NCBI RefSeq assembly: GCF_021513215.1
Contig: NZ_CP090975.1
Coordinates: forward strand, 365,501 to 429,500
Direction: 5' to 3'
DNA from: Suttonella sp. R2A3
GTDB taxonomy: Bacteria > Pseudomonadota > Gammaproteobacteria > Cardiobacteriales > Cardiobacteriaceae
DNA: 64,000 bases
How positions within the stretch are numbered: the first letter of the stretch is position 1; every line of letters starts with the position of its first letter. Of the stretch, positions 7,926-57,525 are shown piece after piece. The notes beneath the pieces are model-generated. The model was not told the DNA's origin. It saw only the letters and a list, made by a program, of their open reading frames with translations, and did not search any database. Made by a program: the position numbers and the translations under genes.

Positions 7926-9224
7926 TTATACCATTTCAGGTCGTTGATGGACCAAATCCAATGCCCGATTATACTGAGATTGTAGCTGATGAAAACGTTT
8001 TTCAGCTAAAACTATGTTAAGCCACAGTGAGCCATCACTGCCCAGCACCTCTTCGCACACTGCTTGTTCGCTGAATAATGCCGAGCGTAGTGCGCCATCA
8101 TCAGCCAGCGACAACTGCACCCAGCCGGCACACTGACTACTCGCAAAATGATCCACAATCGCCTCGCGTAACAGATCCAAGCCTACGCCGGTTTTTGCCG
8201 AACAAAATACTGCACGTGCCTTGCCTTGATCATCACGTTGCACACGGGGCGCTTCATCGCGCAAATCAATTTTGTTATAGACACGAATCATCGGCAAATC
8301 GTCAGCGCCGATGTCTTTAAGCACTGCAGCGACCACCGATTCACGGTCAAGATGATCTTCGTCCGCAGCGTCAATGACCTGCAACACCAAATCCGCATAC
8401 GCCGTTTCTTCGAGGGTGGATTTAAACGCCTCAACCAGTTCATGTGGCAAATCGCTGACAAACCCCACCGTGTCAGCTAGCAAAATCGTTTGCACACCAT
8501 CGTGTTGTAGTTTGCGCCAGGTTGGATCAAGGGTGGCAAAGAGCTGATCCTTAGTAAGCACGTTTGCATCAGTGAGCGCATTAAACAGCGTCGATTTTCC
8601 AGAGTTGGTATAGCCGGCCAATGCTACGGTTGGCATTTCCCGACGCGAACGCCCTTTGCGATTCTCTTCGCGCTGGGTTTGTACTTTCTCCAAGCGACGC
8701 TGTAATTGTTTGATGCGAATACCCAACAAACGACGGTCGGTTTCAAGCTGCGTTTCCCCAGGGCCACGCAAACCAATCCCCCCTTTTTGTCGCTCTAAGT
8801 GCGTCCAACCACGTACCAGGCGGGTGGATAAATGACGCAATTGCGCGAGCTCAACCTGTAATTTACCCTCGTGGCTGCGCGCACGTTGGGCAAAGATATC
8901 CAACACCAAGCCGCTACGATCCAACACTCTGGCATTAAAGAGTTTTTCAAGGTTGCGCTCTTGCGAGGGCGAAAGTGGCGCGTTAAAGATCACCAAATCA
9001 AGCTCGTGCTCGGCGACGGCTTCGGCTATTTCTTGAGCCTGACCGCGGCCAATAAAATAGCGAGGTTCGATCTCACCTCGCGTATAGTCTTTACACCACA
9101 GTGCTTCAGCACCCGCTGAATCTGCCAGTAAATGAAATTCTTCGCGTACTGCCGGGTCGGTTGCGCGACCAATATCAACCTGAATGAGTGCCGCGCGTTC
9201 ACCACTTTGTGGACGTTCAAACAA
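7926..9224 (-). CDS. hflX: GTPase HflX (TTG start)
   Basis: Ribosome-associated GTPase of the Obg-HflX superfamily that splits stalled or stress-inactivated ribosomes. Its 432 residues contain the HflX N-terminal domain (1-190, with GRGQAQEIAEAV, LSPSQERNLEKL and the invariant QKGGIGLRGPGETQLETDRR). The G domain follows: G1 GYTNSGKST near 207, G3 DTVGF and G4 NKID. The start codon is TTG at 9224: a TAG lies three codons upstream in frame, no ATG occurs before the G domain, and MFERPQSGERAALIQ aligns with the family N-terminus. Only a weak ribosome-binding site is visible. It follows hfq after 50 bp. Confidence 0.95.
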   Translation of the reverse strand: MFERPQSGERAALIQVDIGRATDPAVREEFHLLADSAGAEALWCKDYTRGEIEPRYFIGRGQAQEIAEAVAEHELDLVIFNAPLSPSQERNLEKLFNARVLDRSGLVLDIFAQRARSHEGKLQVELAQLRHLSTRLVRGWTHLERQKGGIGLRGPGETQLETDRRLLGIRIKQLQRRLEKVQTQREENRKGRSRREMPTVALAGYTNSGKSTLFNALTDANVLTKDQLFATLDPTWRKLQHDGVQTILLADTVGFVSDLPHELVEAFKSTLEETAYADLVLQVIDAADEDHLDRESVVAAVLKDIGADDLPMIRVYNKIDLRDEAPRVQRDDQGKARAVFCSAKTGVGLDLLREAIVDHFASSQCAGWVQLSLADDGALRSALFSEQAVCEEVLGSDGSLWLNIVLAEKRFHQLQSQYNRALDLVHQRPEMV

Positions 9225-9274
9225 AACCGACTACCGACAGAAATAAATGAAAGGCATTAAGCAATTGCTAACCA

Positions 9275-9574
9275 TCAATAAAAAGGATCGCTATTCGGCG
9301 TTGCTTGATGCGATACGTTCGCCGGCTGTTCGCTGTGGTCTTCTTCTTCATCGCTTGCCCCGCCAATGCTCACATTACGTGACGGCACGATGGTAGAGAT
9401 CGCGTGTTTATAAACCATTTGCGAGATATTGTTGCGCAATAACACGACAAACGCATCAAAGGATTCAATTTGTCCCTGCAGCTTGATACCGTTAACCAGA
9501 TACACGGAAACCGGTACGCGCTCTTTACGTAACGCATTAAGATAAGGATCTTGCAGTGACTGTGATTTACTCAT
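9275..9574 (-). CDS. hfq: RNA chaperone Hfq
   Basis: Hexameric Sm-like protein that anneals small regulatory RNAs to mRNAs. The 99-residue product starts [20 protein letters not shown]. It has the Sm1 segment [17 protein letters not shown] and the Sm2 segment [12 protein letters not shown], both nearly identical to E. coli. A short acidic, disordered tail (DEEEDHSEQ) ends in DPFY. GGGAG lies about 10 bases before the ATG at 9574. Unlike the usual order, miaA is not upstream; the upstream neighbour is the end of a lipid operon, so hfq probably heads its own transcript. Confidence 0.97.
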
Positions 9575-9631
9575 TCTTGTTGTACTCCCAAAATAAATGC
9601 ACGCCGTACCCACTACTGCATGCAGCTACTT

Positions 9632-9661
9632 ATCCTAGCACGAATCCCCTATCTGAGAAAA
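9632..9661 (-). promoter_or_regulatory. Candidate hfq promoter with extended -10
   Basis: Reading the minus strand, TGC followed by TAGGAT (9632-9637) forms an extended -10 element about 60 bp before the hfq ATG. The -35 region is poor (TTTCTC, 17 bp spacing). An imperfect direct repeat TATC(T/C)GAGAAAA at 9650-9661 and 9667-9678 overlaps and abuts the -35 region. Prediction by eye only. Confidence 0.35.
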
Positions 9662-9740
9662 CGTCTTATCCGAGAAAAATAATCAAATTGCCAGGCGTTA
9701 ATCCGTATGCCATCGACTAAGCAAAGACCGGCAATAATAA

Positions 9741-10673
9741 TCAGCCTGCCCGCCATAAATAACGCACCACGTGGAAGAAAATGGGCGCGGCAAAGCACAG
9801 TGAGTCGATCCGATCGAGCATACCGCCATGTCCACTGAGCATACTGCCCCAATCTTTGACCCCGATATCGCGTTTAATCGCCGACATCACCAGCCCACCT
9901 AAAAAGCCCATCACCGCAATCAACAATCCAAGTGCCGCTGCTTCAAAAGGTGTAAAGGGCGTCATCCACCACAAAGATGCTGCGAGCATGGTGGCAAGTG
10001 CAATACCACCAAGCGTCCCAACGACTGTTTTTGACGGCGATAAACTTGGGACAATTTTCCGTTTACCCCATAATTTGCCGCAGATATATTGCAACACATC
10101 GCTCGCTTGCACGACCGCAATTAAAAAGATCAGCAAAGCGATGTTGCTGTCATAACCGGGAAAATGCAGGAACAACAGCGCAGGCACATGCGAGACACAA
10201 AACACACTGATCATCAGCGCCCATTGGATTTTTGCCGAACGGGTTAGGAAACGCTCGGTATCACCAGCCAGTGAGGCCACAATCGGCATGAGTAAAAATG
10301 CATAGACAGGAATGAAGATGGAGAATAAACCGTACCAAGCGTCATAAACCAGCCAGTATTGATACGGCAGTACCACATAATACACCCCAACCAAGACAAA
10401 ATAATCAGCGCGGCGGCGATAAATCAGCGACAGGAACTCTCGTAGTGCTAAAAATGAAATGAGCATAAACAGCAAAACAGTGGCCGCGCGGCCAAATAGA
10501 AACGCCAACAACAGCACAACCACCATCATCCACCAGGCTTGTACGCGATCTAACAGGTTGTCTAAGGTTGGACTGTGACCATGTTTGGCGATAAGCACTT
10601 TCGAGACGATGGTTGCTGTGGTGAGAATCGTACCAATAACGGCGAGTACTATCCAAACATGGGTGGTATTCAT
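9741..10673 (-). CDS. ynbB: CdsA-family phosphatidate cytidylyltransferase, YnbB-like
   Basis: Predicted integral membrane enzyme converting phosphatidic acid and CTP to CDP-diacylglycerol. The 310-residue product has about eight hydrophobic segments. The C-terminal CDS signature is complete: SAIKRDIGVKDWGSMLSG followed by HGGMLDRIDSL (residues about 265-292). SPSKTVVGTLGG earlier in the protein is also typical. It is the last gene of a six-gene operon next to relatives of E. coli YnbC and YnbA, which makes YnbB a better match than the housekeeping CdsA, normally found near ispU/uppS. AGGGG just upstream supports the ATG at 10673, which overlaps the acyltransferase stop (ATGA). Confidence 0.85.
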   Translation of the reverse strand: MNTTHVWIVLAVIGTILTTATIVSKVLIAKHGHSPTLDNLLDRVQAWWMMVVVLLLAFLFGRAATVLLFMLISFLALREFLSLIYRRRADYFVLVGVYYVVLPYQYWLVYDAWYGLFSIFIPVYAFLLMPIVASLAGDTERFLTRSAKIQWALMISVFCVSHVPALLFLHFPGYDSNIALLIFLIAVVQASDVLQYICGKLWGKRKIVPSLSPSKTVVGTLGGIALATMLAASLWWMTPFTPFEAAALGLLIAVMGFLGGLVMSAIKRDIGVKDWGSMLSGHGGMLDRIDSLCFAAPIFFHVVRYLWRAG

Positions 10674-11275
10674 GCACATCCCCTTGCGCTAATGAGTGCG
10701 TCTTTTAATCGATTAAGGCAGGTTGTTTTATCGGCATGCGCACCTTGAAAGCTCTCGCCAAAGCGCAGCGCACAAAGCATTGGCACTGGAATATAACGCC
10801 CTTTAGGTAACACATCTGCAATATTTTCAATCCAAATCGGGACAACCGGCACTGGTTTTTGTTTAAGCAGGTGATAGACCCCGCTTTTAAACGGCAATAA
10901 CGTTTCCGTCGTATTACGCGTTCCTTCGGGAAAGAGGATTAACGACGACCCTTCCTCTAAGGCGACCACCATTTGCTCAATGGCTTGATGCGGATCGCCT
11001 TTACGATCAATTAACACCATATTAAACACTTTGAGCGCAAGAAAACGCCGCATTGGGGTTTTCAGCCAGTAATCAGCACCCGCAACCGGACGAACCTCGG
11101 CACGTTCATGCGCGGGTAAGGCTACCCACAGTAAGAGAAAATCACCATGGCTACCATGATTGGCATAAAACAGCTTTGCCCCACTCGGATAAGGCCATTG
11201 CCGGGCACTGCGCGTCCGCACGCCGGTAACTAACACCACCAGCCAATACAACAATAAGCGCATGAATTGAGCCAC
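10670..11275 (-). CDS. PlsC-family 1-acylglycerol-3-phosphate acyltransferase
   Basis: Predicted lysophospholipid acyltransferase acting at the inner membrane. The 201-residue product has an N-terminal hydrophobic stretch (MRLLLYWLVVLVTGV), the HX4D catalytic motif in NHGSHGDF (residues 39-46), the acceptor-binding FPEGTRN near 115 and VPIWIEN. It would supply phosphatidic acid to the CdsA-like enzyme encoded next. The start is GTG at 11275, two bases after the ynbC-like stop; ATG at 11263 is an alternative, and neither has a strong ribosome site. As far as I recall the E. coli ynb operon has no plsC homologue, so this gene is an addition here. Confidence 0.85.
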   Translation of the reverse strand: MAQFMRLLLYWLVVLVTGVRTRSARQWPYPSGAKLFYANHGSHGDFLLLWVALPAHERAEVRPVAGADYWLKTPMRRFLALKVFNMVLIDRKGDPHQAIEQMVVALEEGSSLILFPEGTRNTTETLLPFKSGVYHLLKQKPVPVVPIWIENIADVLPKGRYIPVPMLCALRFGESFQGAHADKTTCLNRLKDALISARGCA

Positions 11276-11277
11276 AG

Positions 11278-13017
11278 CTAGACCCGTTTCGCCAAAGTCA
11301 CGGTAAATATCCCATCTTCACCACTCCACTGCGCGTATTTCACAAAACCCGCTTGTTCAACCAACTGATCCATTTCCTGCTGTGAGCGACAGCGCATCAC
11401 CCAAGGCTGTCCCGCGCGATGACTCGATAGTGCACGACCAATCATTTCCTGCTGCGGATGCCAAGGCTGTGCGGTATAAATCAAATAGCCACCCTCGCTG
11501 ATAATATCGGCAAAACCATAGAGCGATTGCAGCACTAAAGTATTATCGCTGAATAATTCATGCAGCCCGGAAACAATCCCGAGCGTGGGCTCAATTGGAT
11601 GATCAGCGAATGCCGCGCGATCAAAGGCATCACCCTGTACGAAGGTTACAGTTTCACTCAAACCACGCTCAGCAATCAGCTTTCCTCCGGCAGCGACATT
11701 CGCCTCGCTAAAATCTTGTAATAAGACCTGTTCGGGGTGATGCGAGGTTAATAAAGCATCAAGCACGTAGCGTCCATGACCGGCGGCAATATCCAACACC
11801 CGTTTTTCTTTACCGGCGGCTTCTAAGCACGCAAAAGCTTCATTAATCGCTACCTGAATATGCCGCTTTCTTCCACGAATCCCACGCCAACCAATCGCAC
11901 TCAGATACTGCTTGTCAATGAAGCGGCCAAATGCATTTGTCCCACTTGGCTGGTTTTGATAGACATAATCCAAGGTAGCCCCGCTATCAAACCCGGCATC
12001 ACGCCCAACAGCTAAGCCTTGTGACCAACGAGCACCGAAACGCAACGCGGCACGATAAGCCCGCCAATACATGCCGCGTGGTGACCACTTCGCTAGTGGC
12101 GTTGCCAACTTGTCGGCTCGTACGCGACTCACGCTACGCTCGTCTGCATCAGTAACCGAAACCGGCGCATAAGGCGTTGCGAACTGCCGCTCGATGAATG
12201 TGCGCATAAGGTCAATGGCTTGTGCACGATCGCGTTCACCCAACGTATCGTGATAAAACCCGGGCAATACGTGGCGTTCTTTATCCGCACTACCTAAATG
12301 GTTAAAAAATTGATGCTGCGGCTGATGAGACACCACCCAATCATCGCCGGAGATTAATAGCTGTATCGGCACCGTGATCGCTTGTGCATCAGCGACTACC
12401 CGTTTCGCGAGTCGGTGCAACCCCAACAATATGCGCACGGAAATCGCACGCGCGATCAGTGGGTCATTATTAAAGCTATCAATACGGGCTTGGTCGTGAG
12501 TGAGGTAATGCGCTTTAACATAGCTATTGACAAAAAAGTTACCGCGCAAACGCTGCATTAGGCGTAAACCCGGGCGAGCAAACGGCACATAAAGCTTGAC
12601 TTTAAACGCTGGTGAGGCCAAAACTACCGCACGGATTTTTGGTGCGTAATCATGCAGCCAGCCTGCCACCAGCACCGCACCAACGCTTTGCCCAATAACC
12701 ACCATTTGCCCATAATCAATATCGTAGGTACGTTCAATATAACGAACAAACGCTTCAACATCGGCCACTGAGGCATCAATCGACGGACTATCCCCTCGTT
12801 CCCCCGGGCTATGACCATGCCCTCGTGCGTCCCAGGCAAAAATTGCGGTATCTTCTAGGTTTAATTCTTCGCCAACATGCATCATCCGCGCGGAATGTTC
12901 GTGTCCACGATGAAATAAAATCAGTGCTTTCTCGGTGCGTCCACTTGCTGGCGGACGGTAGCGATAAAATAACTGCGCACCATCGTGGCTGACAAAATTC
13001 TGTTGTTGTTCATTCAT
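11278..13017 (-). CDS. ynbC: YnbC-like alpha/beta hydrolase fused to SAM-dependent methyltransferase
   Basis: Two-domain, 579-residue protein. The N-terminal part (about 1-280) is a serine hydrolase of the monoacylglycerol-lipase type. Ser111 is in GQSVG, with candidate acid Asp225/226 in ISGDD and His256 in GFYHDT. The C-terminal part (about 385-575) is a Rossmann methyltransferase with motif I VLDIAAGHGR at 407-416 and an acidic loop QDFSEAN. Length and order match E. coli YnbC (about 585 residues). The substrate is unknown; context suggests a lipid head group or acyl ester. AGGATGAG precedes the ATG at 13017, 3 bp after the ynbA-like stop. Confidence 0.85.
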   Translation of the reverse strand: MNEQQQNFVSHDGAQLFYRYRPPASGRTEKALILFHRGHEHSARMMHVGEELNLEDTAIFAWDARGHGHSPGERGDSPSIDASVADVEAFVRYIERTYDIDYGQMVVIGQSVGAVLVAGWLHDYAPKIRAVVLASPAFKVKLYVPFARPGLRLMQRLRGNFFVNSYVKAHYLTHDQARIDSFNNDPLIARAISVRILLGLHRLAKRVVADAQAITVPIQLLISGDDWVVSHQPQHQFFNHLGSADKERHVLPGFYHDTLGERDRAQAIDLMRTFIERQFATPYAPVSVTDADERSVSRVRADKLATPLAKWSPRGMYWRAYRAALRFGARWSQGLAVGRDAGFDSGATLDYVYQNQPSGTNAFGRFIDKQYLSAIGWRGIRGRKRHIQVAINEAFACLEAAGKEKRVLDIAAGHGRYVLDALLTSHHPEQVLLQDFSEANVAAGGKLIAERGLSETVTFVQGDAFDRAAFADHPIEPTLGIVSGLHELFSDNTLVLQSLYGFADIISEGGYLIYTAQPWHPQQEMIGRALSSHRAGQPWVMRCRSQQEMDQLVEQAGFVKYAQWSGEDGIFTVTLAKRV

Positions 13018-13020
13018 GGC

Positions 13021-13614
13021 TCATCCTGCTAATCCATTACTGACACGTCGCCAATTCGTGATTAATAATAACCCAATACCGATAAAAAATAATCCATTGA
13101 TTATAGAAAATAGTGCATGAAAAACCACCAATACAGCAATCAAACCGATTAAAAAAGCGCGATCACTTTTACCCATCGGGCCATCGTAACGTCGCCCATT
13201 ACCATGGGCGACACCAAGAATTCCAGCCGCCTCGCTGAGTAATGCAAAGATAATAAACACCACCACCAAAGATGGATAAACCCCACTCAGTAATGCAAAT
13301 GGCGCATATAAAGCAGCGTCCGCCAACATATCGCTCAATTCATTGAGATAGCCACCAAGCGCTGATTGCTGGCCATGTTCACGCGCCAACATCCCATCGA
13401 TGGCATTGAGCGCCATGCGAATAAACATCCATAGCGGCACCAAGATAAATACCCAAGTTATTGAACTTAGCCAGGCCAAGAGCGCCGCAAGCACTAATGA
13501 ACCTAATAAGGCCGCAATGGTCACTTGATTAGCCGTCACGCCACGCTCAAATAAGTTTTGAACCAAGGGTCGCAATAGTGCTTGGAAACGGCTTTTTAAG
13601 GCATAGATACTCAT
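13021..13614 (-). CDS. ynbA: CDP-alcohol phosphatidyltransferase, YnbA-like
   Basis: Integral membrane transferase expected to replace CMP of CDP-diacylglycerol with an alcohol head group. The 197-residue product has about six hydrophobic segments. The CDP-OH-P signature starts at residue 67: NAIDGMLAR, then eight residues, GGYLN and ELSD. Compared with the consensus DxxDG..AR........G...D...D, the first and third aspartates are Asn, while the second and the last (catalytic base) are kept. As I recall E. coli YnbA, it shares these Asn residues, so this looks like a subfamily trait rather than decay. AAGG precedes the ATG. It lies 12 bp after the transporter gene. Confidence 0.85.
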   Translation of the reverse strand: MSIYALKSRFQALLRPLVQNLFERGVTANQVTIAALLGSLVLAALLAWLSSITWVFILVPLWMFIRMALNAIDGMLAREHGQQSALGGYLNELSDMLADAALYAPFALLSGVYPSLVVVFIIFALLSEAAGILGVAHGNGRRYDGPMGKSDRAFLIGLIAVLVVFHALFSIINGLFFIGIGLLLITNWRRVSNGLAG

Positions 13615-13626
13615 GAATCACCCTTC

Positions 13627-15447
13627 CTAAAATGGGAAAAATATCGGTACCAGATACAGCGTTAGCACCATAATAACCAACTGTAAGGGTACGCCAATAC
13701 GAACAAAATCCATAAAACGATATCCACCAGGTAAAATAATCAAACTATTCACCGGTGAGGCAATCGGGGTTGCAAAGGCTGATGACGCAGCAATCGCCAC
13801 CGTCATCATCACCGGCTCTGGGGCAATTACAAGCGCCTGAGACATCGATATCGCCACCGGCGCAAGTAGCACAGTTGTGGCGGTATTAGACATAAATTGG
13901 CTAAGCACGGCGGTTAATACAAATAATAAGGTACACAAACCCAGTGGTGAAATCTCGCTAAACCCTGCCAGCAACGTATCAACCAACAGTTGTAACGCGC
14001 CACTTTTTTCCATCGCCACAGCCAGTGGCAGCATACCCGCGAGCAGCACTAAACTGGTTTCATTGAGCGATTGATAACTCTCTTTGATACTCACGCAACC
14101 GCTGATGATCATTAACATCGCAGCGATAAGTACTACGCTAACATTCGCCAGCCAACCAAACGCCATCGCTGCAATCATCAGCAGCATAATCCCGATCGCA
14201 AGCGGTGCCTTATGCGAGTATGGCGCAATATCTTCTAATTCCACTGGCGTTTGCAAAACCACCAGGTTGCGCTCATTAGACAAACGGCGAATATGCGACC
14301 AACTCCCCGCAAGCAGTAAGCTGTCTCCAGCTTGTAACGTCGTGGATGCATAATTCATGGTGATGGTTTGTTGCCCGCGGCGTAAGGCAATCAAATTGAG
14401 CCCATAATGGCGACGAAACGCGGCTTGTTCCAGTGTGCTACCTACCAAGGCGCTATCAGGCGGGATCAACACTTCAACATAACCAAATGCACGCTGCACC
14501 CGCCGTTCTTCATAGGCACTAAATGGTGAGCGATACAGGTGCATTGCCTGACACAGCTCGCTAACATCCTCGTCACGACCATAAACCCACAACGCATCAT
14601 CTTGCGCGATTTGGCTATTGAGCATCGCCGGAATAAAAGCATTGGCTTTACGGTTATTCTGATTAAGCGCAAATAACGTGACGTTATACTGGCGGCGTAA
14701 TTTCGCCTCGCTGACTGTCAGACCTTTCAACGGGCTGTTATTGGCCAACAGCAATTTATGCAGTTGGCCGCTGATTTCATAGCGCTCGGCAAATGCTTCT
14801 AATGACGCACGTTCAGATTTATCACCATCTAAAGCTCGCTTAGGTAATAAAAATCGTCCGACGCTGAGCATCAACCCCAAACTGACCAATAAAATCAGCC
14901 CACCAACTGGCGTAAAGTCAAAAAAGCCAAACGCCTCTCTTCCGGCATCGCGTAACGCCCCGCTAACCACGATATTCGGTGGCGTACCAATCAGAGTGGT
15001 CATTCCGGCAATCAAGGTTATAAAGGCGACTGGCATCAGCAGCCTCGCTGGATGAATTTCGGCTTTACGCGCCATCGCCATCACCACGGGAATGAGTAAC
15101 GCAACGGTGCCTGTCGAACTAATGCTGGTGGATAATAAAGACACCACCGGCAATAACACCAGCAACAATCGTAGCTCGCTCTTGCCACCAATTTTTAGCA
15201 GGAACTGACCAATCGTGCCTGCAACACCGGTACGAAAAATCCCTTCACCGACAACAAATAATGCGGCAATCATCACCACGATTGTATTGCCAAATCCGGA
15301 AACCGCTTCTGCGGGGGTGATCACACCGGATACCGCAAGCACGATCACCACCATCAGCGCCACCATATCCATGCGCCAACGATCGATAATAAACGCAACT
15401 ACCGTTAGCAGTAATAGCACATAAACAAAAGCAATTTCAGCGCTCAT
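13627..15447 (-). CDS. SLC13/DASS-type anion permease with central TrkA_C domains
   Basis: A 606-residue transporter. Two sets of membrane helices (about 1-200 and 395-606) flank a soluble centre of two RCK/TrkA_C-like repeats (about 215-285 and 305-385, with LVGSTLEQAAFRRHYGLNLIAL). SLLSTSISSTGTVALLIPV and IGTPPNIVVSGAL in the first half, and SQFMSNTATTVLLAPVAISM in the second, match the paired ion/substrate-binding SNT hairpins of divalent-anion:sodium symporters. Likely substrates are sulfate or di/tricarboxylates; which one cannot be read. The ATG overlaps the stop of the preceding small gene (ATGA), so it belongs to the lipid operon. Confidence 0.85.
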   Translation of the reverse strand: MSAEIAFVYVLLLLTVVAFIIDRWRMDMVALMVVIVLAVSGVITPAEAVSGFGNTIVVMIAALFVVGEGIFRTGVAGTIGQFLLKIGGKSELRLLLVLLPVVSLLSTSISSTGTVALLIPVVMAMARKAEIHPARLLMPVAFITLIAGMTTLIGTPPNIVVSGALRDAGREAFGFFDFTPVGGLILLVSLGLMLSVGRFLLPKRALDGDKSERASLEAFAERYEISGQLHKLLLANNSPLKGLTVSEAKLRRQYNVTLFALNQNNRKANAFIPAMLNSQIAQDDALWVYGRDEDVSELCQAMHLYRSPFSAYEERRVQRAFGYVEVLIPPDSALVGSTLEQAAFRRHYGLNLIALRRGQQTITMNYASTTLQAGDSLLLAGSWSHIRRLSNERNLVVLQTPVELEDIAPYSHKAPLAIGIMLLMIAAMAFGWLANVSVVLIAAMLMIISGCVSIKESYQSLNETSLVLLAGMLPLAVAMEKSGALQLLVDTLLAGFSEISPLGLCTLLFVLTAVLSQFMSNTATTVLLAPVAISMSQALVIAPEPVMMTVAIAASSAFATPIASPVNSLIILPGGYRFMDFVRIGVPLQLVIMVLTLYLVPIFFPF

Positions 15448-16109
15448 GAATTAAGGCGTGCTGTTTTGCGCCGCTGTAGCCAGAAGATCAACTCCATAAC
15501 ACCGGCAAATAACACAAACAGTAACAACCAAATGGGCCAGAAAAACATCCAAGCCAACCATTGGTAGCCGTATGACGAGCTATTCCATAACCTCAACGCT
15601 GGCCGGACAATAAAGATGCTGTTCTCTTGGGGCACTACGCCATGTGTGTCATGGATAGTCACCTCAAGCTTAGGCCACCCAGGCCAAAAAGCCAGCGACG
15701 CTAACGCATCTTGAGGTTCAAACTCAAAGATAATTTTCTCGTCATCGCGATACCAAGCAACTGCATGTATGGGGTGTGCATCCTGTTTATTGAGACGAAT
15801 ATCCAGTGTAAATGGGTATTCAATCTCTTCAGAGACACAATGACGCTGATAAGCAAATTCGCAGGATTTACTCCGATCTTTGCGTTGATTTTGCTCAAGC
15901 CAGGCAAGCAGCTCTGGCGAAGCGGCTGTTTGCATCGACAGCACAACCCCTTTCCCGGCCAACGGCCGAAACACCGAGAACGTACGCGTTTCGCCATCAT
16001 TAAAAACCACACCAACGCGCTTTTCTTGAATCGAGAAATAAAAAATCACCATCAGCATCACAAACAGCGAAAACAATACGCTCCATATTTTCCACAACCG
16101 AGCCCGCAT
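15444..16109 (-). CDS. Hypothetical bitopic membrane protein heading the ynb-like operon
   Basis: I do not recognise this 221-residue protein. It has a membrane helix at residues 7-26 (KIWSVLFSLFVMLMVIFYFS), a soluble, probably periplasmic domain of about 145 residues with a Cys pair (CEFAYQRHC), and a C-terminal helix (WMFFWPIWLLLFVLFAGVMELIF) ending in a basic tail. A perfect-looking AAGGTGG lies 5 bases before the ATG. It is the first gene of the run ending at ynbB and overlaps the transporter start by 4 bp. Function unknown; it could be an accessory subunit of the transporter or of the lipid enzymes. Confidence 0.7.
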   Translation of the reverse strand: MRARLWKIWSVLFSLFVMLMVIFYFSIQEKRVGVVFNDGETRTFSVFRPLAGKGVVLSMQTAASPELLAWLEQNQRKDRSKSCEFAYQRHCVSEEIEYPFTLDIRLNKQDAHPIHAVAWYRDDEKIIFEFEPQDALASLAFWPGWPKLEVTIHDTHGVVPQENSIFIVRPALRLWNSSSYGYQWLAWMFFWPIWLLLFVLFAGVMELIFWLQRRKTARLNS

Positions 16110-16186
16110 TTAAACCACCTTTTTATACTTACAACTGAGCATGACGCATTATTTCTTGAAACACTATAACCTATTCGCCGCTTATT

Positions 16187-16870
16187 TTAATCACGAAAAA
16201 TATTGATAAAATCCTCTGGTAATTTACTCCCTGCACTCAGATGAAGAAAGCCAACCGTTGGATGATTACGCGCCAAATAAGCCGCCAGATACTGGCTACT
16301 GTCTTGCGCAATGAGTGGTGCTGCATACGGATAGGGATTATAAATAAGCCAGCGTGGACTTATGCCTCGTGAACGCATTGCCTCAAGCGTGGCGATGCTA
16401 TGATGAATACTACCCAACGCGGCATTAGCGATTAAGATAATCGGCAGGCGATGGGCAATCAGCCAATCTACGGTAAGTTCTGTGTGATTAAGCGGCACAA
16501 ATACCCCACCAGCACCTTCACAAAACACAACATCCGCCCCACACGTTGTGGCGTAGTGCGTCAAGCGCTGCCACAACTGCGCACCATCAATCGTTGTTCC
16601 AAGCAGACTAGCCGCCAAATGCGGCGAAGCGGCATAAGGAAATGTTGCACCACAGCTCAATCCTATGCGATCTGCTTCGCTCAAAGGTTGTCCACTGTCG
16701 CTGCGGTGCGCTAAAATATCGGGGGCAATCTGCCCTTCTGTCATGCCTGTCTGTACCAGTTTAAACGAACTGACCTTGATTTGGTACGCCATCAAAGCAC
16801 GTAACAACCTTGCAGTTACGTAGGTTTTACCAATATCTGTACCAATCCCCGTAATAAAAAAGATTTTCAT
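16187..16870 (-). CDS. bioD: Dethiobiotin synthetase
   Basis: ATP-dependent carboxylation of 7,8-diaminopelargonate to dethiobiotin, the penultimate step of biotin synthesis. The 227-residue product has P-loop GIGTDIGKT (residues 8-16), the substrate Lys in SFKLVQTGM and CEGAGGVFVPL near 121 (E. coli EGAGG motif). It is the last gene of the biotin operon; its ATG overlaps the bioC stop (ATGA). No clear terminator follows, and the next transcript begins about 75 bp downstream. Confidence 0.95.
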   Translation of the reverse strand: MKIFFITGIGTDIGKTYVTARLLRALMAYQIKVSSFKLVQTGMTEGQIAPDILAHRSDSGQPLSEADRIGLSCGATFPYAASPHLAASLLGTTIDGAQLWQRLTHYATTCGADVVFCEGAGGVFVPLNHTELTVDWLIAHRLPIILIANAALGSIHHSIATLEAMRSRGISPRWLIYNPYPYAAPLIAQDSSQYLAAYLARNHPTVGFLHLSAGSKLPEDFINIFRD

Positions 16871-17619
16871 CGCCGCCTGCCTATAAATAAAAACACATCT
16901 TGAGTCAGTGGGTAGCCTTGTTCATCGCACAAACGCGCATAGCGAGAACGAAATTGTCGCCAAGCACTAAACGTTGGTGATACGCTAAGTGCATGCAATC
17001 CGCTATCGCGAATATGCGTCAATACCGCATGAGGATCAGTAAAATAGATGCGTGAACACACCGAATCCGACCACAGTGGCTGAAAATATTGCGTGAATAG
17101 GTCAAAGAGCGTCTGTGGGGCGCGATAGTTCAAACCAATGCCCAATGTTTCGCGTAACTCCTGATAATGCTGCCCTGCATAAAGGCTGCATGCAAAAATG
17201 CCCTCAGCATGCATCGTCTGATGTAGCTTGCGTAACAATTCATCTAATGGCTCTATCCATTGAAACACCGACGCACTCAACACCAAATCTAGCGAAGCTG
17301 GCAACAGCAGTTTGCTGATATCACCAATATGCAAATAGGTCTCAAGAGCTGGCGGATTGAGCGCTGGGGGTTGGTATAAATCGTTTAACCCATAACGTGC
17401 AATACGCGGTTGCCGCCAATATTGGGCCAAGGCAGTGGTTAAAAATCCGCTCCCACAACCTATTTCCAATGCGTGATGATAAGGACGCGTAATGATTTGG
17501 CACAGCCGCTGCGCCAAACGGTCTGCAACACCACGTTGATGATCCGCGTATTGATGATACGCATCCAAATGGCGGGAGAAATGTGCCGCCAACTGTTGTT
17601 GGTGTTCATGGACAGTCAT
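16867..17619 (-). CDS. bioC: Malonyl-ACP O-methyltransferase BioC
   Basis: Methylates malonyl-ACP so that fatty acid synthesis can build pimeloyl-ACP methyl ester. The 250-residue product has HALEIGCGSGFLTTAL (motif I, near residue 51), LVLSASVFQWIEPLDELL (post motif) and the N-terminal HFSRHLDAYHQYADHQRGVADRL seen in BioC. The start MTVHEHQQQL at 17619 gives a 14 bp overlap with bioG and has GGGCAG upstream; a longer reading adds 27 residues without family similarity and is rejected. Confidence 0.92.
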   Translation of the reverse strand: MTVHEHQQQLAAHFSRHLDAYHQYADHQRGVADRLAQRLCQIITRPYHHALEIGCGSGFLTTALAQYWRQPRIARYGLNDLYQPPALNPPALETYLHIGDISKLLLPASLDLVLSASVFQWIEPLDELLRKLHQTMHAEGIFACSLYAGQHYQELRETLGIGLNYRAPQTLFDLFTQYFQPLWSDSVCSRIYFTDPHAVLTHIRDSGLHALSVSPTFSAWRQFRSRYARLCDEQGYPLTQDVFLFIGRRR

Positions 17620-54822: not shown

Positions 54823-55218
54823 CTATAGAAGTAATCTATAGGATATGGTTAAGAATAAACAAACAATCTGTAGCACACTTAATATCAATGTCCAGCGTCC
54901 TAAGCGTTGGGCCGCTTGACAGCGCTCAGCCATACTCCGGGCTCCCGTTTTTCTAGCGTATAGACTTTCTAGCGCTTCATCCAAGGCTTCCAAGGTGAGC
55001 GCACCAGAACCAAGGCGGTCAAACAATCGCTCATCAATCGTAATACGCAGCACAAAATAGCCTTGAACCAAGAGAATGAACAGCAACACGAGGCCGATAT
55101 AAAACCCAAAATTAATCCATCCCAGTATCACCACGACGATATTTAACGCCCACAGCGTACGGTAAGCACGCAAGCTTGCCGCCGTTAGCGTTGCTAAAGC
55201 CCGCTCATTATCAGTCAT
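54823..55218 (-). CDS. Hypothetical membrane protein after ynbD-like gene
   Basis: I do not recognise this 131-residue protein. Two adjacent hydrophobic segments (about residues 23-58, ALNIVVVILGWINFGFYIGLVLLFILLVQGYFV) and one at the C-terminus (about 107-131) surround a charged middle with ERLFDRLGSGALTLEALDEALESLYARKTG. GGAGG stands upstream of the ATG at 55218, which overlaps the preceding phosphatase gene by 8 bp, so the two proteins are probably made together. Function unknown. Confidence 0.75.
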   Translation of the reverse strand: MTDNERALATLTAASLRAYRTLWALNIVVVILGWINFGFYIGLVLLFILLVQGYFVLRITIDERLFDRLGSGALTLEALDEALESLYARKTGARSMAERCQAAQRLGRWTLILSVLQIVCLFLTISYRLLL

Positions 55219-56497
55219 TAATCGCCTCCTCAATCGCTCGTTGGGTGGTCTCAGATATTACGATATGCGGCTGCGCCGCTAAAAGCAACGCTTTCGCCTC
55301 AGTCAGAGTGTCTGCATTACCATAACGAACCAGCCAAGTCAGTACTACAGCCGCACTACGACCATAGCCTAGCGCACACGCCACCAATACAGGCCCTGAT
55401 TGCGTGCCTAACAGATCTTCCAACCCATCAGCAGCCCGGCGCAAATCCTCGACCTTTGGCGACACTAAATCCAACATCGGCACGCTCTGATAATGCGTTG
55501 GCGTATTCCACAAAGGATATTCCGCGCACACATCGAGCATCGCTTGGTTATGTTTGGCTGCAACAATACTGCCTAGTTGTACCCGATCTGTAACGCGCAC
55601 CACCCGCGGTTTACCGCGCAACCAAAAAGCGATATTCGCACGGCACGCCAGATAATACGGCGCCAATAACAGGGTTACCGGCATACTATGGCGTCCATTG
55701 CTTTGCTTTTGAAAAGCTTGTGCGCCAAGGCCGGCGTAAGCAAGCACCAGGAATACACACGCAGCAGCAATCCAGCCTGTCCATAACCAGCTGCCAGCAA
55801 AGAACATCAATAAAACAGCCACTGCGGTCAGCAGAGCGTAGGCGAGGCTGCAGCGCGGATGAAGACGCTTCGCCATACGACACACAGGCGACGGTTGATT
55901 GGTTGGCAGCAACCATAACACGACAGCAGCCGCTAACACGCCGGTTGGAATGTCGATAAAATGGTGCTGCCAAGTGGTGAGTACCGATACAGCAATTAAA
56001 CTAAACCAGCCAACAATTGCAGTACGCCAAGCCGGAAAACGCAGCCAATAAAAATAGCCCACGATGATTGAGAGCATAATATGCAGCGATGGTGCTTGAT
56101 TATACGGCTGATCAAACGCCCCTAGCGCTTGAAACAACCAAGCAGAAAGGCCGTCAGAGGCAGGCTTCGACCAACTGAATTGCAGCGGCCAAAGTATAAA
56201 ACACAGCACCGCAATCGTTTGTGCAAGCAGAAGCTGCTGCACATAACGCCATAAGGCTTTTTTTGTGCGACAGAGAAAAAAAGCGGCAGCATAAAACAGA
56301 TTGAGCGTCCAATAAGGGACAATCGTCCACGGCCAAAAAGGAATCGAGCGTTCCCACGCAAAAGCAATCTCTGGCACCGAGTCACGTTGCCCGGCCAACC
56401 AATTCGCCCCACCATAGCTGCTATAAAAAATCACGCCAACAGCGATAAGTGCGCCTAATGCAACGAATTTAGTTAGCCGCTGATCTCCTGTCTTCAT
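55211..56497 (-). CDS. ynbD: YnbD-like PAP2 membrane protein fused to dual-specificity phosphatase
   Basis: A 428-residue protein. The N-terminal membrane part (about 1-260) has PAP2 features: PSLH at 136-139 and HHFIDIPTG at 178-186. The C-terminal domain (about 290-428) is a dual-specificity/tyrosine phosphatase with Cys374 and Arg380 in the CX5R loop ACALGYGRSAAVV and a possible general acid Asp343 in PMLDLVSP. Length and order match E. coli YnbD (about 430 residues). The first motif of classical PAP2 (KxxxxxxRP) is not obvious. The ATG overlaps the pyrC stop. Other ynb relatives lie 40 kb away at 9.7-13.6 kb. Confidence 0.85.
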   Translation of the reverse strand: MKTGDQRLTKFVALGALIAVGVIFYSSYGGANWLAGQRDSVPEIAFAWERSIPFWPWTIVPYWTLNLFYAAAFFLCRTKKALWRYVQQLLLAQTIAVLCFILWPLQFSWSKPASDGLSAWLFQALGAFDQPYNQAPSLHIMLSIIVGYFYWLRFPAWRTAIVGWFSLIAVSVLTTWQHHFIDIPTGVLAAAVVLWLLPTNQPSPVCRMAKRLHPRCSLAYALLTAVAVLLMFFAGSWLWTGWIAAACVFLVLAYAGLGAQAFQKQSNGRHSMPVTLLLAPYYLACRANIAFWLRGKPRVVRVTDRVQLGSIVAAKHNQAMLDVCAEYPLWNTPTHYQSVPMLDLVSPKVEDLRRAADGLEDLLGTQSGPVLVACALGYGRSAAVVLTWLVRYGNADTLTEAKALLLAAQPHIVISETTQRAIEEAIND

Positions 56498-57525
56498 GCA
56501 AGCAAGCGCCAAGGCCAACGCTCACCGGCTAAAAACGGCACAATCGTGGTATCGCCATAAGGCAGCGTTTCTGGAAAGCGCTGTTCAACGCGCTCAAGTG
56601 TAACCGTGCCAGGGTTATACGGCAGACGGTAAAAATCCGCACCAAAGCGCGCGGCAAAATTGCCCAGCTTATCGAGTGCCCCAGCTTGATCAAACACGGC
56701 TGCATATAAAGCCAAACTGGCGTGCGCGCTATAGCAACCGGCACAACCACAGGCGTTTTCTTTTGCACTCTGTGCGTGCGGTGCACTGTCTGTACCAAGG
56801 AAAAACCGTGGATCACCGCTGGTCGCAGCTTCAACTAACGCCGCACGATCGGCTTCGGTTTTTAAGATCGGCAAGCAGTAATAATGCGGTTTAATGCCAC
56901 CGACCAACAGCGCATTGCGGTTAAACAATAAATGCTGTGGTGTGATGGTCGCTGCAGTGTTTTTCGCTTGACTACGGACAAATTCCACGCCTCGTTTAGT
57001 GGTGATATGCTCAAGTACCATACGCAGCCGTGGAAAGCGCACACGTAAATCACACAGCACCTCATCGATAAAACGCGCTTCACGATCAAAAATATCGATC
57101 TCAGGATCGGTCACCTCACCATGGATGAGCAGTAGCATATCTTCAGCCTCAAGCGCTTCAAGCAGCGGATAAATTGCGCTTACCTCGGCCACACCTTGCG
57201 CTGAATTCGTCGTCGCCCCACGTGGATACCATTTAACGGCCACCACCCCTGCAGCTTTCGCTTCAATAACCGTTTGTGGGGTTAACCCGTCGCTGAGATA
57301 AAGGCTCATCAATGGCGTAAAAGTTGTGCCTTCTGGAATATGGGCAATAATTCGCTCACGATACCCCTCAACGGCTGCCACACTATCGAGTGCCGGAGTT
57401 AAATTAGGCATCACCAGCGCACGCGCACACTGGCTTGCCGCATCAGCAACCGTCCGAGCCAGCGCAGCTCCATCGCGCAGGTGGATATGAAAATCATCAG
57501 GAGTGGGGATCGTTAGTTTGCTCAC
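56494..57525 (-). CDS. pyrC: Dihydroorotase (GTG start)
   Basis: Zinc amidohydrolase closing carbamoyl aspartate to dihydroorotate, the substrate of PyrD. The 343-residue E. coli-type protein has zinc ligands His13 and His15 in DDFHIHLRDG, the carbamylated Lys98 in VVAVKWYPRGATTNS, LLLIHGEVTD, VLEHITTK and LGTDSAPH. The start is GTG with AAGGAAA upstream. It overlaps the ynbD-like gene by 4 bp. Confidence 0.96.
   Translation of the reverse strand: MSKLTIPTPDDFHIHLRDGAALARTVADAASQCARALVMPNLTPALDSVAAVEGYRERIIAHIPEGTTFTPLMSLYLSDGLTPQTVIEAKAAGVVAVKWYPRGATTNSAQGVAEVSAIYPLLEALEAEDMLLLIHGEVTDPEIDIFDREARFIDEVLCDLRVRFPRLRMVLEHITTKRGVEFVRSQAKNTAATITPQHLLFNRNALLVGGIKPHYYCLPILKTEADRAALVEAATSGDPRFFLGTDSAPHAQSAKENACGCAGCYSAHASLALYAAVFDQAGALDKLGNFAARFGADFYRLPYNPGTVTLERVEQRFPETLPYGDTTIVPFLAGERWPWRLLA

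Follow-up and report, generated by a model that had tools for sequence, protein, structure and literature searches.

The ynbABCD genes of Escherichia coli are the closest described relatives of a cluster of lipid-enzyme genes that we analysed in a 64,000-nucleotide stretch of the Suttonella sp. R2A3 genome (contig NZ_CP090975.1, positions 365,501 to 429,500; hereafter, the window). DNA matching ynb was found in 4721 of 5426 complete E. coli genomes, in 4242 of them over at least 80% of the query. The genes are present in most complete E. coli genomes, yet the open-licence literature, in the excerpts available, assigns the set no head-group lipid and makes no mention of the Asn/Asn pattern described below; the same limit applies to all papers cited here. 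E. coli YnbB produces CDP-diacylglycerol in vitro (PMC7018664), and the sole product proposed for it is MPIase, for which it would serve as a back-up enzyme (PMC6362211; PMC7018664). A transposon insertion in ynbC raised polyphosphate in one E. coli background, whereas Keio deletions did not (PMC2435150), and ynbA is listed in a table from a cyclic di-GMP screen (PMC13031359).

YnbA carries the CDP-OH_P_transf domain of the CDP-alcohol phosphotransferases. The signature of this family, D1xxD2GxxAR...GxxxD3xxxD4, comprises eight conserved residues, of which D1-D3 bind metal and D4 is likely the base (PMC4634129; PMC6506517). We found that four genes of the cluster belong to a real, widely shared lipid gene set, and that YnbA, its central enzyme, is unusual in having Asn at D1 and D3. 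On balance, we favor the view that the set encodes a dedicated pathway to a glycerophospholipid, including the supply of its precursors, next to which a permease gene and a bitopic gene of the same cluster are local neighbours.

Gene content and distribution of the ynb set

We searched 105 other ynbC loci, comprising 80 loci from named genomes, seven records from a plasmid collection and 18 further stretches, with profiles seeded from the window's own proteins; the stretches span 4 to 22 kb, and absence is meant within that DNA. The 80 named loci had the highest scores among at least 540 confirmed YnbC relatives and are biased toward window-like sequences, 58 of them being from Pseudomonas; the remaining 22 carry 19 labels, including two metagenome-assembled genomes of Acidobacteriota and one of Myxococcota. 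The 18 further loci were picked for a match to Methyltransf_20, one of them weak (L053, from genome G041) and two (L037 and L044) from a single genome.

Among these best 80 loci, YnbA and YnbD were found in all 80, a small protein that accompanies YnbD in 76, and the acyltransferase PlsC and the CdsA-type enzyme YnbB in 75 each; 74 loci contain all six including YnbC. The 18 further loci held YnbA in 15, YnbB in 12, YnbD in 11, and PlsC and the small protein in nine each, with the complete six in six loci. The seven plasmid records had YnbA and YnbB six times each, YnbD four times, PlsC three times and the small protein once. YnbA, YnbB, a PlsC-like protein and YnbC stand together in other Pseudomonadota, Acidobacteriota and Myxococcota. 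The preliminary description, made from the DNA letters of the window, had recognized lipid genes of the ynb type together with a PlsC, and this is borne out, the set being conserved well beyond this genome. It had called the operon expanded, which is not the case: plsC is a usual member (87 of the 105 loci), and the chromosomal-type E. coli operon is the one that lacks it. The conserved six, YnbA, YnbB, PlsC, YnbC, YnbD and the small protein, differ from the six genes listed in that description.

YnbD had also been thought to have no counterpart here. A search of the genome with PAP2_3 found a YnbD-like gene in the same window, with the gene of the 136-residue small protein overlapping its end, and this pair resembles the pair that follows ynbC in other loci. 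This genome holds the full set in two places. The genes at these places, the permease and bitopic genes among them, are as follows (first and last nucleotide in the window, strand):

9741..10679, minus: YnbB-like (CdsA-type) CDP-diacylglycerol synthase, 312 residues; CTP_transf_1 above the Pfam cut-off
10670..11275, minus: PlsC-like acyltransferase, 201 residues; Acyltransferase above the Pfam cut-off
11278..13017, minus: YnbC-like fusion of a monoacylglycerol-lipase-like hydrolase and a methyltransferase, 579 residues; Hydrolase_4 and Methyltransf_20
13021..13614, minus: YnbA-like protein, 197 residues; CDP-OH_P_transf, with N70 and N91 replacing D1 and D3, Arg66 and Glu92
13627..15447, minus: SLC13/DASS-type permease; CitMHS and two TrkA_C stretches (Pfam)
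15444..16109, minus: bitopic protein of unknown function, 221 residues; no Pfam family above cut-off
54823..55233, minus: conserved small protein that accompanies YnbD, 136 residues; no Pfam family
55211..56518, minus: YnbD-like protein, 435 residues; PAP2_3 and dual-specificity phosphatase domains, CX5R

The open reading frame (ORF) coordinates agree with the earlier account of six same-strand genes with overlaps or tiny gaps: the six ORFs at 9741-16109 are tightly packed on the minus strand, two pairs overlapping, by 10 bp and 4 bp, and the others being separated by 2, 3 and 12 bp. Upstream, 77 bp away on the same strand, lies what we take to be a bioD-like gene, and downstream of the cluster lie genes that are presumably hfq and hflX. 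Promoter-like sites were at the level of shuffled sequence (11 seen, 10.3 expected). Terminator-like sites were more numerous than in shuffled sequence (22 seen, 10.2 expected), mostly within genes, and were not used as evidence. A tRNA search of 9000-17000 found none, and an Rfam search of 9000-17500 gave no match.

The distribution of the set is graded. In 370 genomes of the gammaproteobacterial class, strong YnbC matches occur in nine (299.8-494.1 bits) and strong YnbA matches in 21 (129.9-299 bits), including all nine with YnbC, and full-length YnbD (259.4-641.3 bits) in six, every one of which has YnbC; partial YnbD matches in eight genomes (70.7-113.2 bits) were not counted. A contiguous ynbA-ynbB-plsC triad is present in 11 of the 12 YnbA genomes without YnbC; in the twelfth, G063, ynbB lies elsewhere and no plsC-type match was found near ynbA or ynbB. 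YnbB scores at least 320 bits in 28 of the 29 genomes with YnbA or YnbC, and only 111 bits in G296. YnbD was found in 12 of 17 genomes with YnbC and in none of 12 without it (Fisher p = 1.2e-4, for genomes that are related, five of the 17 belonging to one family). The other searched genome of the window's own genus (G001) has the triad, with no Methyltransf_20 and no YnbD match, and G022 has ynbC, ynbD and the small gene at one place and a triad of a more distant type (type 2, below) at another. We read this as a nested set, with a core of plsC, ynbB and ynbA, to which first ynbC and then ynbD with the small protein are added. The survey thus indicates which genes are best considered together, the permease being set aside at first.

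The presence of the ynbA-ynbB-plsC triad without YnbC bears on a different reading, in which the set would serve lipid repair or remodelling, YnbC deacylating lipids, PlsC reacylating them, and YnbA, YnbB and YnbD recycling phosphatidic acid. The monoacylglycerol-lipase-like half of YnbC and the PlsC in one set fit this scheme. However, the triad suggests that synthesis rather than deacylation is the common core, and repair offers no obvious use for a methyltransferase; we therefore regard remodelling as unlikely.

Several records stand apart. The YnbC-like protein of a Kosakonia plasmid (L021) has lost the motif of the lipase half and the other members are absent, though it is still counted among the 105, and the match on a cyanobacterial plasmid (L022) is the methyltransferase part alone (314 residues). 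Weak Methyltransf_20 matches (18.7-37.6 bits in G006, G041, G217, G340, G344 and G346, and a second one in the window's genome, G000) were not counted as YnbC. On a Moraxella osloensis plasmid (L018), ynb-type genes are fragmented among IS3 elements, and a patatin-like gene follows the methyltransferase part. In G004, of the same family as the window's genome, ynbC as recorded consists of three open pieces (L041 8721-10487). A 19083-bp plasmid record of Burkholderia ambifaria (L272) has, by annotation, the whole six-gene set beside bcsB and bcsZ, and its YnbC is confirmed by Pfam.

A family-2 glycosyltransferase gene (L274 7623-8597) is convergent with ynbA on a Caballeronia replicon bearing the triad and could encode a further tailoring enzyme. 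The neighbourhoods of 15 loci were surveyed for head-group genes with a crude longest-ORF gene finder, which is unreliable in G+C-rich DNA, and the one lead taken from this survey is a weakly VTT-like protein. This membrane protein, adjoining the triad at two loci (L279 2030-2638 and L198 6889-7428), gave sub-threshold matches to VTT (16.3 and 25.2 bits; cut-off 33.9), a family whose proteins are lipid scramblases.

Signature residues and folds of the enzymes

The YnbA of the window matches PF01066 with 32.2 bits (cut-off 22) and reads N70xxD73GxxAR...G87xxxN91xxxD95, so that the Asp expected at D1 and D3 is absent. In the profile alignment, D68, D71, D89 and D93 of the Mycobacterium tuberculosis (Mt) enzyme PgsA1 correspond to N70, D73, N91 and D95. 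The rest of the signature is kept (D73, G74, A77, R78, G87 and D95) and is invariant in a 28-row alignment; the signature Arg is substituted in some diverged rows, such as L051, L018, L052, L023 and L195, and in the type-2 group. Intact signature motifs had been claimed for each enzyme of the cluster; this holds for the catalytic residues of YnbC, PlsC and YnbB, and fails for YnbA.

The altered residues are a property of the whole YnbA type. We collected 117 YnbA-type rows, two of which are truncated over the motif; the 115 complete ones (101 and 14, four of the 101 read by eye), many from Pseudomonas and hence non-independent, all have Asn at both D1 and D3, as do L275 and L279 besides. As controls, we used 72 regions from PF01066 matches (30 best-match loci, 40 hand-picked lower rows and two from the window's genome), a set that excludes the weakest matches. 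In these, the pair is D/D in 71 (12 of them read by eye) and D/E in one, and Asn in none; when the controls were rechecked, 70 of their 72 motifs lay inside the PF01066 match (69 D/D and one D/E), the script failing to locate L203 and L227. The Asn pair has companions. An Arg four residues before the first Asn is found in 115 of 115 YnbA-type rows and in none of the controls, and a Glu directly after the second in 114 (Lys in the E. coli record L020), again against none. An Asp four residues after D4 separates the groups equally well (115 of 115 against 0 of 72), yet it is also present in Mt PgsA1. In a quick tree of 72 controls and 43 YnbA-type rows, a single branch split the two groups (Shimodaira-Hasegawa-like approximate likelihood ratio test, 97); with 168 kept columns and several long branches meeting, the tree is indicative. 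Even the more distant type-2 group (L199, L200, L201, L275 and L279; CNLxDGMVA...) shares the Asn/Asn/Arg pattern, and three of its loci (L201, L275 and L279) have their own ynbB- and plsC-like neighbours.

A structure model of YnbA (mean predicted local distance difference test score 94.9, from the 28-row alignment) gave its best structural matches with phosphatidylinositol-phosphate (PIP) synthases (5d91, 5d92 and 6wm5; Z 20-21, root-mean-square deviation (rmsd) 2.2-2.5 over 185-191 residues). In the mycobacterial PIP synthase, R155 and R195 are required for inositol phosphate (PMC4634129), and R94 is critical for it in Mt PgsA1 (PMC6506517). R152 and R190 of YnbA align with the first two and are invariant in the 28 rows. 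The equivalent of R94 is Met96 in the window, and across the 115 rows this position is Val in 83, Ile in 21, Leu in five, Arg in three, Met in two and Ala in one. Since R94 is not kept, YnbA proper is unlikely to use inositol phosphate itself, and we infer that the acceptor is a phosphate-bearing alcohol other than inositol phosphate.

The loss of two metal-ligand Asp residues raises the question of whether YnbA is a transferase at all. In the canonical enzyme MjPSS, replacing any Asp of the signature by Asn or Ser greatly reduces or abolishes activity (PMC8633023), and YnbA might instead bind CDP-diacylglycerol or present lipids while other members of the set catalyse. The loss in 115 of 115 rows agrees with such a role. 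However, D2, D4, the two phosphate-site Arg residues, R66, E92, D99, K149 and D151 are invariant in the 28 rows, and R66, E92 and D99 are found in at least 114 of the 115, which is more conservation than a scaffold needs; a non-transferase thus appears rather unlikely. We tentatively propose, as a possible rather than a probable solution, that the YnbA-type clade, that of E. coli included, has dispensed with the canonical two-metal site, that the Arg, one helical turn away, and the new Glu beside the second Asn bind the diphosphate of CDP-diacylglycerol, and that YnbA, with a private PlsC and CdsA, builds an undescribed phospholipid to be tailored by YnbC and YnbD. The genome encodes two more PF01066 proteins, both D/D, which leaves YnbA free for another job. 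The Asn/Asn/Arg pattern poses, in a laboratory organism, the question of whether a CDP-alcohol phosphotransferase fold can work without two canonical metal ligands, and which lipid it makes.

The other enzymes have the residues expected of them. The lipase half of YnbC has the catalytic residues S111, D226 and H256, and a search with its model returned the monoacylglycerol lipase fold, matched over 270 residues with a Z of about 28 and an rmsd of 2.6-2.7; the structural search was confined to this half, the methyltransferase half being known by its Methyltransf_20 profile. A DIAAGHG motif is also present in YnbC. PlsC has both H40xxxxD45 (HX4D) and FPEGTR, and YnbB combines the CTP_transf_1 profile with the C-terminal signature KRDxGVKD...HGGMLDRID. 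The housekeeping-type cdsA of this genome was seen in two frames (L285 1495-2400 and just after; about G000:C1:79322-80145), its CTP_transf_1 match breaking just before the C-terminal signature, which may be a sequencing error; if the split is real, YnbB is the only intact enzyme of that kind found in the genome. YnbD has a CX5R loop (C381...R387) invariant in 26 rows, and its dual-specificity phosphatase (DSP) half, with a DSPc match of 34.2 bits (cut-off 33.5), resembles many solved DSPs. PTPMT1, a phosphatidylglycerophosphate (PGP) phosphatase, is among these matches and is not the best of them. A solved-structure search with the 136-residue small protein found no relative at E up to 1.

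The permease and the bitopic protein

The preliminary description had joined the permease and the bitopic protein to the four lipid genes as one biosynthetic system, in which the SLC13-type permease would import the head-group precursor, and had stated that rare co-occurrence of the six genes would speak against it. The co-occurrence check was run and found the six rarely together: within the stretches searched, homologues of the permease and of the bitopic protein occur in 0 of the 105 other ynbC loci. The permease itself is a strong family member (CitMHS, 298.5 bits; cut-off 31.9), and a search of 57 genomes for the bitopic protein gave homologues in two, the window's own and one more of this genus.

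The tight spacing on a shared strand nevertheless speaks for one system, and so does the other searched genome of the genus (G001, L150): in both genomes, the bitopic and SLC13 genes overlap and lie near ynb genes, although in the second a DJ-1/PfpI gene stands between them and ynbA-plsC-ynbB. In genus g12 (two genomes), SLC13 lies about 1.8 kb from the type-2 triad. Against this, SLC13 adjoins hfq-hflX in two genomes of the same family (G007 and G010), where the stretch searched gave no match to ynb or bitopic genes (the G010 contig being only 6 kb), and an opposite-strand pirin gene separates SLC13 from the triad in L279 of g12. The single six-gene system is thus improbable. The SLC13 gene is probably a neighbour of hfq, beside which the ynb genes landed in this genus, and SLC13 and the bitopic gene may have a link to them at the level of the genus.

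Proposed pathway and comparison with known systems

From the observed gene content, the nested co-occurrence, the folds of YnbA and the YnbC lipase half, and the motifs, we infer an order of steps, a phosphorylated acceptor, reactions for YnbC and YnbD, and a product as follows. The PlsC-like enzyme would supply phosphatidic acid, which YnbB, using CTP, would convert into CDP-diacylglycerol. YnbA, with its rebuilt active site, would transfer the phosphatidyl group to an alcohol, most likely a phosphate-bearing one. On that lipid, YnbC could act twice, by deacylation with its lipase half and by methylation with the other, and YnbD would strip the terminal phosphate.

Several observations weigh against this pathway. 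In view of the MjPSS changes, YnbA may lack transferase activity, and the R94 position is hydrophobic in 112 of its 115 rows, the three Arg all being of type 2. The chromosomal-type E. coli operon is without plsC, although the gene is present in a plasmid copy from E. coli. Full-length YnbD is missing from five of the 17 YnbC genomes and absent from the 12 without YnbC, so that dephosphorylation by YnbD is not obligatory, and in the window ynbD is not adjacent to the operon, lying about 39 kb away. The YnbD of E. coli, when over-produced, failed to replace PGP or undecaprenyl pyrophosphate (C55-PP) phosphatases (PMC7413402), which suggests another substrate. Finally, the open-licence literature names no lipid change for ynb mutants in the excerpts available.

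The one product proposed in the literature offers a further reading, in which YnbB, together with the genes around it, would provide a reserve route to MPIase, a glycolipid required for membrane protein integration. Over-production of E. coli YnbB indeed raises MPIase, and YnbB is no substitute for CdsA in making the bulk of the phospholipids (PMC6362211; PMC7018664). However, MPIase is not significantly changed by deletion of ynbB (PMC6362211), and ynbB is dispensable for phosphoglyceride-linked enterobacterial common antigen (PMC8609368). Moreover, a role in MPIase alone leaves unexplained why, in Pseudomonas, Zoogloea, Acidobacteriota and others, the family keeps company with YnbA, PlsC, YnbC and YnbD, and we consider this reading very improbable.

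The dedicated pathway draws its parts from several described families and differs from each. The permease has the CitMHS and Na_sulph_symp domains of the SLC13/DASS carriers, such as VcINDY and NaCT, with two internal TrkA_C stretches as a difference, and it stands outside the conserved ynb set. YnbB shares with CdsA the CTP_transf_1 domain and the C-terminal signature, whereas the N-terminal half of its E. coli paralogue differs (PMC7018664). YnbC has the fold and the Ser-Asp-His of monoacylglycerol lipases at 22% identity, and differs in its fusion to a Methyltransf_20 domain.

In comparison with E. coli ynbABCD, the window encodes homologues of YnbA to YnbD, the YnbC proteins being 55% identical, and E. 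coli YnbA (L020) has the same pattern of an Arg four residues before the first Asn, both Asn residues and D4. The two differ in that the window has plsC in the operon and a 136-residue protein by ynbD, both lacking from that E. coli record, and in the distance of 39 kb between ynbD and the operon. The PIP synthases (Mycobacterium PgsA1, RsPIPS) are the closest solved fold to YnbA, and their two phosphate-site Arg residues align with it. YnbA is set apart from them, at about 17% identity, by Asn in place of D1 and D3, a position R94 that is not conserved, Glu92 in place of Ala90, and the extra Arg66.

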